Origin: Collimonas sp. PA-H2
GTDB taxonomy: Bacteria > Pseudomonadota > Gammaproteobacteria > Burkholderiales > Burkholderiaceae_D
Assembly: GCF_002564105.1 (NCBI RefSeq)
Contig: NZ_PDBX01000002.1
Coordinates: 62,001 to 126,000 of the forward strand
Direction of reading: 5' to 3'
Length of the DNA stretch: 64,000 nucleotides
Below the pieces are notes generated by a model. It searched no databases, had not been told where the DNA came from, and was given only the letters and a program-made list of their open reading frames with translations. A program made the translations under genes and the position numbers. Below are positions 28,019-39,462 of this stretch, piece by piece (within the stretch, counting starts at the first letter, position 1; every line of letters begins with the position of its first letter).

Positions 28019-28166
28019 CGACCGCTGCGGCGATAAGATGAAACACGGCATAAGCCGCAACACCGCCCGCCATTTCCGGGCCCGACAGACTGGAGGCTGG
28101 GTATGAAAGCTTGCGTTTCTTTTAAGAGTGAAAAAAACATCAACCACTTTAAAGGAACGCGCCGTC

Positions 28167-28934
28167 ATGGCCACTTCTATTTCTGCCCAAGATCCATTCA
28201 AGTACACCACCATCGCCCATAGCGGCCATCATTACTGCAGTCCGCTTTCTTCCAACAAAGCCGTCGGCTTGCTAGCTGCGCTGCAGCTGCAGGCTGACGC
28301 CCTGGTGCTGGATGCCGGTTGCGGCAAAGCGGCATTGCTGCGCGACTTGCTGGCATCGCAGCCGGTGCGCGGCGTCGGCGTCGACATCAATCCGGCTTTC
28401 CTGGCTGAGGCCGCGCATGCCTGGGCAGCCAGCCATCCTGGCGACGGCCGCCTGACCCTGATCGCACACCAGCTTGAGCAGCATCCCCTTCCCCCCAAAG
28501 GCTACGACGCCATTCTGTGTGTCGGCTCCACTCATGCGCTTGGAGGATTTGAACGTAGCCTCACCACCTGCCGGCAATGGCTCAAGCGCGGCGGCGTGCT
28601 GTTGATTGGCGAAGGTTATTGGAAACAGCAACCATCTGAGGAATATCTGGCCACTCTCGGCGCCACGGAAGATGAGCTGACCAGTCATGCGGAAAACATT
28701 AAACGTGCGCTTGCGCATGGTTTCAAGCTGCGCATCGCCACGGAGAGCAGCGATGACGAATGGGATCAATACGAGAACATGTACTGCCAGGCAGTGATGG
28801 AGTATTCGGCATCTCATCCGGATGACCCTGACACCCTCGCTTTCCGTGAAAGAGCCCGGCGCTGGCACGACAGCTATCTCGCATCTGGCCGTTCGACGCT
28901 CGGATTCGGCTTCTATCTGCTGGAAAAGAGCTGA
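28167..28934 (+). CDS. SAM-dependent methyltransferase, class I
   Basis: A 255-residue Rossmann-type methyltransferase. Motif I is 'VLDAGCGKAALLRDLLAS', followed by an acidic 'GVGVDIN' strand that holds the SAM ribose, and 'YDAILCVGSTHALGGFERSL' for the central strand and substrate region. I prefer the ATG at 28167 with AAAGGA at 10 nt spacing; a GTG at 28128 gives 13 extra residues. The C-terminal domain is Trp/Tyr-rich. The substrate is unknown. Its terminator appears to have been interrupted by a palindromic element. Confidence 0.85.
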   Translation: MATSISAQDPFKYTTIAHSGHHYCSPLSSNKAVGLLAALQLQADALVLDAGCGKAALLRDLLASQPVRGVGVDINPAFLAEAAHAWAASHPGDGRLTLIAHQLEQHPLPPKGYDAILCVGSTHALGGFERSLTTCRQWLKRGGVLLIGEGYWKQQPSEEYLATLGATEDELTSHAENIKRALAHGFKLRIATESSDDEWDQYENMYCQAVMEYSASHPDDPDTLAFRERARRWHDSYLASGRSTLGFGFYLLEKS

Positions 28935-28970
28935 TACTGCCGTCGCATAAAAAAGCCGGCAGTGCAAGCC

Positions 28971-29430
28971 TAATGCCGTTCAGTTAAGACTGAACGGCAT
29001 TTTTATTTGCGGAACTCGTAGGGTGGGCACTCCGTGCCCACGCGGACGGGCCGGGGCGCGTAGCCGGGGCACGAATGTCAGGGACACGAATATCCATGAT
29101 ACTGCGTGGGCACGGAGTGCCCACCCTACGGCAGCGATTTTCAGTAGGGAATGATTAATTGTGTAGCGATTTTGTATCCAGCCGGTTGCTGTGCCCCTGC
29201 TTGTGTGGTCGAACTGATGGCGCTGCTGTTCGCATTCGGCGCGATAAGCGCTGCGGGCTTCCTGAGCTCGCGACAAAGCACCGGTAGGGTGGGCACTCCG
29301 TGCCCACGCGGATAGGACCGGGGCGCGTAGCCCGGGTGCGAATGCCCAGGGACGTAAATCTCCACGGTACTGCGTGGGCACGGAGTGCCCACCCTACGCC
29401 ATGTCGTCCTGCCCTAACTGAACAGCATTA
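28971..29430. mobile_element. Palindromic element, double-core copy, inserted in a terminator
   Basis: Terminal inverted repeats TAATGCCGTTCAGTTA and TAACTGAACAGCATTA (one mismatch) bound 460 bp. At the left end, the inverted repeat and its complement form a 13-bp hairpin (28972-29001) followed by a T-run, a terminator-like structure. Two 112-114 bp cores follow (29018-29129 and 29284-29397). Each is bounded by GTAGGGTGGGCACTCCGTGC and its complement, and each arm is itself a hairpin (GTGGGCAC-TCC-GTGCCCAC). 154 bp without a recognisable gene separates the cores. The element is flanked by 13-bp direct repeats (28958-28970 and 29431-29443, 11/13 identical) and lies between convergent genes. 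No transposase. Confidence 0.75.
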
Positions 29431-29490
29431 GGCAGTGCGGGCCGGCTTTTAAAATCGCAATCGCACCGGCTTCACGCCACTTATCTGTCG

Positions 29491-30654
29491 CTACATTACG
29501 GCCAAGGCCTGTTCGATATCAGCAATCAGATCCTGCGGATCTTCCAGGCCGATGTTGAAGCGCACCAGGATGCCCTTGCCTTGCCAGTTCTGGCGCATGG
29601 CCTGGATGCGGTAAGGCACGCACAGGCTATTCGCGCCGCCCCAGCTGTAGCCGATCTTGAACAGCTGCAAGCTGTCGACGAAACGGTCGGTCTGCTCTTC
29701 GCTGTAGTGCTCGTCGAACACCACCGAAAACAAACCCGCGGCGCCGCTGCAATCGCGCTGCCAGATGTCATGACCCGGGCAATCCGGGAAGGCTGGATGC
29801 AGCACCCGGCTGATCTCGGGCCGCTGCTTGAGCCAGCCCGCAATGTTGCGCGCCGCTGCATCATGCGCTTCGAAACGCATCTTCATGGTCGGCAGGCTGC
29901 GCAGCACCAGATAGACATCGTCCATGCCGACGCCGAAGCCAAGCCGCATATGGGCGGTCTGCAGGCGCTGGTTCAAGGCGGCGTCACGCGTGATGACCGC
30001 CCCCATCAGGACGTCCGAGCCGCCCGACTGGTATTTGGTGAGGGCATGCATGACGATATCGACGCCAAGGTCGAAAGCGCGCAGGGCCAGGCCGGCCGAC
30101 CAGGTGTTATCGATCGCTACCAGTACATTGTTGGCGTGGGCCGCCTGGCAGATGGCGGGAATATCCGGCATTTCCATCGACACCGAACCCGGCGCTTCGG
30201 TCCAGATCAGGCGGGTATTCGGCTGGATCAGGGCGGCAATGCCGGCGCCGATCAATGGATCGTAATAGCGCGCGCTGATGCCGAAATCGCGCGCCAGCCA
30301 GTTGCCCAGGTCGCGGTTCGGGTTATAGACGTTATCCGGCAGCAGCACGTCGTCGCCGCTCTTCAGCAAAGCCAGGTTGACCATCGTGATCGCCGCCAGG
30401 CCGCTGGGGGCCAGCAGGCAGTGCTGGCCACCTTCGATTTCCGCCAGGCGCGCTTCCAGCGTGAAGGAAGTCGGGGTGCCGTGCAGGCCGTAAGTGTAGC
30501 CGTTCTTTTCCTGCCAGTTGCGCGCCCGCATCGCGGCGACATTCTTAAACAGGACTGTAGAGGCGTGGTGTATGCCGACCGGGAAGGCGTCAAAGCCTGC
30601 CGGAGCCTGGTAATCGCTGTGGATCACCGCGGTTTGAAAATTCTTTTTTGCCAT
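29491..30654 (-). CDS. metC: PLP-dependent cystathionine beta-lyase-like enzyme
   Basis: A 387-residue enzyme of the Cys/Met metabolism PLP family. The PLP lysine is K207 in 'MHALTKYQSGGSDVLMG', preceded by the PLP-contacting 'AIDNTWSAG'; 'YTYGLHGTPTSFTLEARLAEIEGG' near residue 53 is the conserved tyrosine-containing segment. The T-W-S-A-G sequence and the tail 'YRIQAMRQNWQGKGILVRFNIGLEDPQDLIADI' agree better with MetC-type beta-lyases (cystathionine to homocysteine, pyruvate and ammonia) than with gamma-synthases. It is convergent with the methyltransferase gene. Confidence 0.87.
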   Translation of the reverse strand: MAKKNFQTAVIHSDYQAPAGFDAFPVGIHHASTVLFKNVAAMRARNWQEKNGYTYGLHGTPTSFTLEARLAEIEGGQHCLLAPSGLAAITMVNLALLKSGDDVLLPDNVYNPNRDLGNWLARDFGISARYYDPLIGAGIAALIQPNTRLIWTEAPGSVSMEMPDIPAICQAAHANNVLVAIDNTWSAGLALRAFDLGVDIVMHALTKYQSGGSDVLMGAVITRDAALNQRLQTAHMRLGFGVGMDDVYLVLRSLPTMKMRFEAHDAAARNIAGWLKQRPEISRVLHPAFPDCPGHDIWQRDCSGAAGLFSVVFDEHYSEEQTDRFVDSLQLFKIGYSWGGANSLCVPYRIQAMRQNWQGKGILVRFNIGLEDPQDLIADIEQALAVM

Positions 30655-39205: not shown

Positions 39206-39249
39206 TCCGGCGGAAAATATCCTGCCTCAAAAAAAGCCCCGCACTGCGG

Positions 39250-39440
39250 TAATGCCGTTCAGTTAAGACTGAACGGCATTTTTATTTGCGGAATTCGTAG
39301 GGTGGGCACTCCGTGCCCACGCGGACCGGCCGGGGCGCGTAGCCGGGGCACGAATGGCAGGGACACGAATATCCACGATACTGCGTGGGCACGGAGTGCC
39401 CACCCTACACCGTGTCGTTCTGCCCTAACTGAACGGCATT
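39250..39440. mobile_element. Palindromic element, single-core copy, inserted in the bamD terminator
   Basis: A 191-bp non-coding element bounded by TAATGCCGTTCAGTTA at the left and TAACTGAACGGCATT at the right. Its order equals that of the copy near 29 kb: end hairpin (13-bp stem) with T-run (39251-39285), then one core (39297-39408) whose two hairpin arms are inverted to each other. It is flanked by exact 13-bp direct repeats CCCCGCACTGCGG (39237-39249 and 39441-39453). Deleting the element and one repeat restores the uninterrupted terminator A7-GCCCCGCAC-TGCGGGGC-T6. It lies between convergent bamD and the glycosyltransferase gene. Confidence 0.82.
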
Positions 39441-39462
39441 CCCCGCACTGCGGGGCTTTTTT
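39441..39462 (+). terminator. Terminator retained at the right edge of the element
   Basis: CCCCGCA/TGCGGGG stem followed by GC and T6. Because the target was duplicated, this right-hand copy still folds; it can end plus-strand transcription from bamD. Confidence 0.8.

Follow-up and report, generated by a model that had tools for sequence, protein, structure and literature searches.

A putative REP-carrying MITE of the IS4 subgroup and its mostly terminator-borne insertion sites in a Collimonas genome

Introduction

Terminator hairpins are the targets of group IIC introns, which have an intron RNA with a domain V and leave no target duplication. For the insertion sequence (IS) IS4 the target consensus is AAA-N20-TTT, and a report from 1984 is said to have described an IS4 insertion in the pheST attenuator. 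The matches listed in our literature search did not include the AAA-N20-TTT consensus for IS4.

The IS4 subgroup has ends of the form -AATR--------WTW and direct repeats of 10-13 bp (De Palmenaer et al. 2008, PMC2266710, Table 1), and the same work ascribes a 'spectacular' target-arm specificity to some of its elements; in the accessible portion of its text the words terminator, AAA and MITE give no match. ISRm22, an IS4-family element of S. meliloti, has all of its nine copies in REPs according to the text available from PMC1525189, and the BrickBuilt MITE of Porphyromonas gingivalis is described, in the excerpted text of PMC4596501, as lying near predicted terminators. Insertion inside a terminator hairpin is not mentioned in the examined part of a review of bacterial MITEs (PMC10969869).

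The locus compared with these systems lies in a 64,000-nucleotide stretch of the genome of Collimonas sp. PA-H2 (contig NZ_PDBX01000002.1), hereafter the window, to which all plain coordinates refer. An earlier note, made from the letters of the window, had read it as a palindromic element of a class without a name that had inserted in a terminator.

Results

A 460-bp non-coding unit occupies positions 28971-29430 between two convergent genes and is set in the hairpin of an intrinsic terminator. Sequence inspection and end searches placed its 16-bp ends TAATGCCGTTCAGTTA (28971-28986, + strand) and TAACTGAACAGCATTA (29415-29430, - strand), which are inverted with one mismatch, and next to them lie the direct repeats GGCAGTGCAAGCC (13 bp, 28958-28970) and GGCAGTGCGGGCC (29431-29443), identical at 11 of 13 positions. 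The inverted ends and flanking repeats described earlier for 28958-29443 are thus confirmed. Target sites were reconstructed by deletion of the insert and one repeat, which at this site yields A6-GCCGGC-N7-GCCGGC-T4; the proposal of an insertion with target duplication in an intrinsic terminator holds. The A-tract of the interrupted terminator (a T-tract on the other strand) is at 28949-28954 and its T-tract at 29447-29450, both assigned from the sequence and the reconstruction. Open reading frames and comparison with congeners define the gene upstream of the terminator (28128-28934, + strand; labelled 'methyltransferase' in the earlier note) and the convergent gene that uses the same terminator (29491-30654, - strand).

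The element, delimited by genome search and extraction of its copies, is in + orientation, i.e., with its hairpin/T-run end on the left. This end folds into a terminator-like hairpin with a 13-bp stem, a 4-nt loop and a T-rich tail (28972-29008, +), which lies within 38 bp common to an autonomous IS described below. Then follow a first inverted pair of GTAG-headed REP palindromes (29017-29130; arms 29017-29043 and 29104-29130), a spacer (29131-29283) that over roughly its final 27 bp is like the outer flank of a REP pair of the chromosome (L044), a second inverted REP pair that differs from the first in sequence type (29284-29397; arms 29284-29309 and 29372-29397), and the right end (29399-29430, -), which resembles the left end without the T-run when read inward. 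The two nested-hairpin cores that had been described as 154 bp apart are these two REP pairs, which are separated by about that distance. A 133-aa open reading frame over the element was not counted as a gene because it lies in palindromic DNA. No known RNA family was found in Rfam, where just microRNA-precursor matches far under gathering scores fell on the REP hairpins. A group IIC intron was rejected: Rfam gave no group II match for 28500-29900 at E values up to 1, and the element has target duplications. The window holds a second copy at 39250-39441 (+), which is of a short 192-bp form with one REP pair and is flanked by a perfect 12-bp repeat, CCCGCACTGCGG (39238-39249 and 39442-39453).

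With up to two mismatches allowed, the 16-bp end matched the host genome 84 times and the reversed control pattern once. These searches led to 36 full copies of 176-700 bp: 29 measure 176-222 bp (16 exactly 192 bp), six 459-460 bp and one 700 bp, with a median identity of 93% for short and 96% for long copies. Nine more host loci with single, diverged or chance ends contain no full element under the criteria used and were left out. The best-scoring direct repeat is 12 bp long in 31 copies and 13 bp in five; it is perfect in 19/36 and has at most two mismatches in 34/36. When left and right flanks were swapped among copies, 33 of 1260 pairings reached the weakest observed repeat score, and the best of them scored as a perfect 12-mer, which is expected for sites such as L012 and L249 that have the same 12-mer. 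As each of the 36 copies has a repeat of 12-13 bp, chance is an unlikely explanation for the duplication. The 700-bp copy (L242, C1:723656-724355) has its internal REP unit repeated at 253-bp spacing, and at L243 (C1:949693-950282) a copy plus flank is tandemly repeated at about 213-bp spacing. IS4-like ends, as elements or single ends, also occur with other cores at L233 (C1:1077875-1078073), L235 and L239, possibly further MITE types.

The insertion reading had been staked on empty sites in relatives and on direct repeats in terminators at other copies. Both were found: other copies have repeats and are mostly in terminators, and empty sites, mostly intact terminators, exist in congeners for both window copies. 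For the first site, 13 congener loci were compared, with both flanking genes present in seven and the right gene alone in six; five of the seven have a terminator without the element (L199, L202, L203, L204, L207), and the exceptions are a 26-bp gap without a terminator (L209) and a different intergenic stretch of 308 bp (L210). For the second site, both genes were found in 11 of 14 congener loci, none of the 11 with the element. Ten of them have a clear terminator and one (L231) a weaker hairpin with no clear T-tract; all terminators at empty sites were read by eye. The empty terminator of the closest of these loci (L218) is GCCCCGCACTGCGGGGC, with an A-run on one side and a T-run on the other; the duplicated 12-mer is part of it.

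By eye, TAATGCCGTTCAGTTA fits the IS4-subgroup end -AATR--------WTW position by position, and the best repeat of 12 or 13 bp in 36/36 copies falls within the 10-13 bp of the subgroup. In the congener Collimonas humicola (G186), the left 38 bp of the element match the ends of two full ISs with 97% identity (37/38), beside an Nterm_IS4 gene. These ISs are 1415 bp long and have the same 16-bp ends; the one copy that was translated encodes an ORF of 441 aa, so that an autonomous partner with one ORF and the same ends exists within the 1400-1650 bp typical of the subgroup. The 441-aa transposase matches Nterm_IS4 (PF13006), DDE_Tnp_1 (PF01609) and the NCBIfam model NF033592 'IS4 family transposase', and by eye it has the motif Y-2-R-3-E-6-K as Y-ER-R-WQI-E-TSYREL-K. 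Its ends, its duplication length and the 37 of 38 bp shared with the congener IS mark the element as a putative MITE of the IS4 subgroup of the IS4 family, a new member of a known subgroup. It has the features of a MITE, being short, non-coding and multicopy, with inverted ends, duplications and empty sites. The class of DNA palindromes without a name is hence dropped: the nested hairpins are REP pairs that are also found outside the element.

Nterm_IS4 (PF13006) matched in 18 of 195 genomes of the host's family, among them the congeners G143 and G186. In the host genome the same search gave no match and no IS4-type transposase was found, and beyond the shared end the host loci examined yield just a 73-bp piece of the IS left end with 78% identity (L234). 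This is a point against the proposed movement by an IS4-type transposase, which would have to act in trans. Four full-length PF01609 transposase genes of the host (L031-L034) were rejected as mobilisers, as their ends (GGGAAGCACTGA) do not match, and a fifth, short PF01609 match (L035) gave no hit in an end search or in a tblastn search with the IS4 transposase. L031-L034 are four copies of another host IS, identical over about 1.2 kb and with a 353-aa open frame, which we take to be IS5-like.

One of the G186 ISs (L079, contig C23) and a host mini-copy (L017, C1:798767-798957) lie in the same terminator, in equal orientation and with near-identical outer flanks, and share the 12-bp duplication CAGCCTCGGCTG; either a repeated hit or a replacement through the shared ends could account for this. 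Mini-elements of 196-197 bp in the congener G130 have the same left end, an IS-like right end and no REPs, and the congener G143 has at least one related copy with REP-like palindromes. Read inward and compared by eye, the MITE right end agrees with the left end in 25 of 32 bases, and the IS right end diverges from the left-end sequence soon after the 16-bp repeat, which suggests that both MITE ends may derive from a left end.

The insertion sites have a common layout. The 31 sites with 12-bp duplications align as A-tract, 12 bp and T-tract; position -6 is A in 97% of them, position +18 is T in 100%, and dyad symmetry peaks with the duplication as its centre. The 20-21 intervening bases give a hairpin of -5 kcal/mol or better at 31 of the 36 host sites, compared with 418 of 3000 random window positions, and both tracts (at least 3/5 A and 3/5 T) are present at 34/36. 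Controls were window positions of the same tract geometry, with overlaps collapsed and the same hairpin threshold of -5 kcal/mol. Hairpins occur at 30 of the 34 tract-bearing targets versus 28 of 218 tract-matched window controls (p ~1e-18) or 5 of 57 intergenic ones (p ~1e-14). With stricter tracts (at least 4/5 on each side), a hairpin is present at 25/25 targets and 7/27 sites of the whole window (p ~7e-9); intergenic controls of this kind are few, five sites of which one has a hairpin. Repeated, site-type-specific insertion, as claimed earlier for this element, is thus seen in 36 full copies with duplications of 12-13 bp, 31 of them at hairpin sites.

A simple codon-usage call assigned neighbour genes to 34 copies, the two copies without a call being left out: 20 pairs are convergent, 12 co-directional and two divergent. 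At the 12 co-directional sites the element faces either way relative to the upstream gene (7 vs 5, p 0.77), hence there is no sign that its own terminator is selected to serve one neighbour, and we rejected an orientation picked to serve the upstream gene.

The same target was tested elsewhere in 59 named loci with the 31-bp left end and in 11 further loci from family and congener searches. A right end and a duplication that could be scored were found for insertions at 19 distinct sites. Every one of these 19 sites has a hairpin that reaches -5 kcal/mol, and both tracts are present at 17. They span Massilia, Duganella, Pseudoduganella, Janthinobacterium, Herbaspirillum, Undibacterium, Caballeronia, Collimonas and other family members, and the L079 site is counted once, as the named record L193. 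Outside the 19 are 113 left-end matches without a scorable partner (a mixture of both strands, palindromic re-hits and contig ends), two loci missed by the left-end criterion (L078 and L089, duplications 12/12 and 11/12), and L082 and the second full IS in G186 (L096), both without a scorable duplication. Two further IS4-type elements outside this set (L080, L085), with ends TAATG(C/G)CGTTAAGTTA, 9/11 repeats and GGGTCTGACCC at the right junction, have a different kind of target.

E. coli IS4, with the ends TAATGCCGATCAGTTAAGG..., is represented by 17 records that reduce to nine sites of different sequence; the adhE terminator accounts for two of these. A hairpin at -5 kcal/mol or better is present at seven of these nine sampled sites and absent from the bcsG site and the K-12 site, the latter common to 8 of the 17 records. 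Both tracts (3/5) are likewise present at seven of nine sites, which are not the same seven, L262 and L264 being short on the T side. Most full-length IS4-family transposons examined, E. coli IS4 included, also sit in terminator hairpins.

In the core of the MITE, REP palindromes with a GTAG head are arranged as one inverted pair or two. Palindromes of the form GTAGGGTGGGCAC-NNN-GTGCCCACGC have 158 matches in the host, many inside MITE copies, and none in the four congeners G130, G175, G186 and G195. The same REPs occur outside the MITE at L044-L047. The REP pairs at L044, L045, L046 and L047 have short flanks of their own, e.g., AAACAGGACAAGCC and GACAAATC; since these are shared, the pairs may constitute a second family of interspersed REP elements.

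Discussion

We consider it highly probable that the window element is a non-autonomous MITE of the IS4 subgroup that depends on a transposase from elsewhere, uses A-tract/T-tract targets that are mostly terminators, carries a core of REP pairs, and has a recombinant long form. The interpretation given in the earlier note is partly supported overall. We propose that a transposase encoded elsewhere would bind the 16-bp ends, pair them and excise the element by cut-and-paste, which would then be joined with a 12-13 bp stagger across the top of a terminator hairpin. The target would be read as an A-tract and a T-tract about 20 bp apart, a pattern that for the most part means the hairpin of an intrinsic terminator working in both directions.

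Neither hairpin nor tract pair is strictly required, as 5/36 host sites and the K-12 and bcsG sites of E. coli IS4 have no hairpin at -5 kcal/mol or better and 2/36 host sites have no tract on one side. Since the tracts are fixed and the centre of the hairpin is displaced by at most 1 bp relative to the duplication in 30 of 31 hairpin sites (and by more in L020), the tracts probably set the insertion register and the hairpin contributes a preference, and the tract rule would then be the feature read by the transposase. The present-day distribution of sites is also filtered by tolerance of intergenic insertions. A possible, if doubtful, alternative is that the transposase reads the A-tract/T-tract pair alone, terminators being the commonest tolerated places with such a pair and the hairpin irrelevant. 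The pair is indeed the most constant feature (97% A at -6 and 100% T at +18, n = 31), both tracts are kept by four of the five hairpin-less host sites and by the K-12 IS4 site, and the hairpin centre floats as just described; however, where the tracts are equal, targets have a hairpin far more often than window sites do (25/25 vs 7/27, p ~7e-9). It seems rather unlikely that transposases of the IS4 subgroup recognise intrinsic terminators as such, i.e., that besides the tracts they sense the hairpin, extruded as a cruciform, or local conditions around a polymerase that is terminating. If they did, terminators would serve the whole family as a safe harbour, where an insertion would copy the hairpin and thereby keep termination intact.

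Two other explanations concern the REP core and the long form. The 460-bp form, with its two REP cores plus spacer, might be taken for one mini-element inserted in another, which we regard as very improbable: a pattern search finds no internal IS4 ends, the six copies of 459-460 bp are 94-98% alike and each has its own duplication, and the second REP pair with about 27 bp of outer flank resembles the chromosomal pair L044, while the same type of second pair is joined to the MITE right end in a short copy (L246, 94%). Apart from the window's own locus and one 18-bp match, the rest of the long-form spacer has no match in the loci compared. The long copy appears instead to be a recombinant, produced by exchange through REP sequence, the partner being a chromosomal REP pair, and later transposed as a unit; of the earlier suggestion that it was a composite of two insertions or a recombinant, the second part therefore stands, given the L044-like second core, and the first falls with the missing internal ends. 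That the element is a REPIN and owes its movement to a REP-associated tyrosine transposase (RAYT) is scarcely credible, even though GTAG-headed palindromes form an inverted pair in the core, the host has many such REPs (158 matches, many within MITE copies) and one Y1_Tnp gene is present. The moving unit is bounded by IS4 ends and 12-13 bp duplications and not by REPs, the congener mini-elements L114 and L134 share the left end but have no REPs, and no such REP was found in the 3.3 kb around the host Y1_Tnp gene, so that we rejected a REPIN/RAYT system as the mover.

Insertion of the MITE presumably costs the host little in termination. The duplication would cover the hairpin top, so that each outer side keeps a short copy beside its T-run, and the left end would supply a strong hairpin and T-run of its own; with both, little harm to termination would be expected. 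The hairpin of the left end, followed by a T-rich tail, has a folding energy of -19.3 kcal/mol, and this end is kept within three mismatches in 34/36 copies. On the right, the hairpin remnant is weaker than the hairpin of the empty site (median -4.15 vs -11.85 kcal/mol; -4 kcal/mol or better in 20/36 vs 33/36), and termination may therefore be reduced. The findings suggest a simple target rule for a transposon subgroup that includes its type element, E. coli IS4. The duplicated hairpin top could be the reason why such elements multiply with little harm, and REP pairs as cargo of a DNA transposon are a possible second route of REP spread.

In its ends and duplications the window element is like the IS4 subgroup as characterized in the available text of PMC2266710, and its autonomous partner is so in its size within 1400-1650 bp, its one ORF and its Y-2-R-3-E-6-K motif. 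Unlike the ISs of that subgroup, the element has no transposase gene and contains REP pairs. It is short, non-coding, mostly intergenic and has inverted ends and duplications, as bacterial MITEs do according to the examined part of the review PMC10969869. With ISRm22 it shares the choice of palindromic intergenic DNA by an IS4-family element; however, ISRm22 targets REPs, going by the accessible text of PMC1525189, whereas the window element carries REPs as its cargo and is targeted to terminators. In the BrickBuilt example, as presented in the excerpt of PMC4596501, the element lies beyond a terminator that is left undisrupted, whereas here it lies inside the hairpin, the top of which is duplicated. 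GTAG-tagged REPs and REPINs, as portrayed in the portions at hand of PMC3733652 and PMC3116915, have the GTAG head and the inverted pairs in common with the core of the element. Unlike them, the REPs of the window element are enclosed in a mini-transposon with its own ends, and no RAYT link was found. In the literature found, which left most subscription journals uncovered, a terminator rule for ISs or MITEs is stated nowhere, the nearest case being BrickBuilt. Compared with these known systems, what looks new is the terminator rule, along with the REP cargo.
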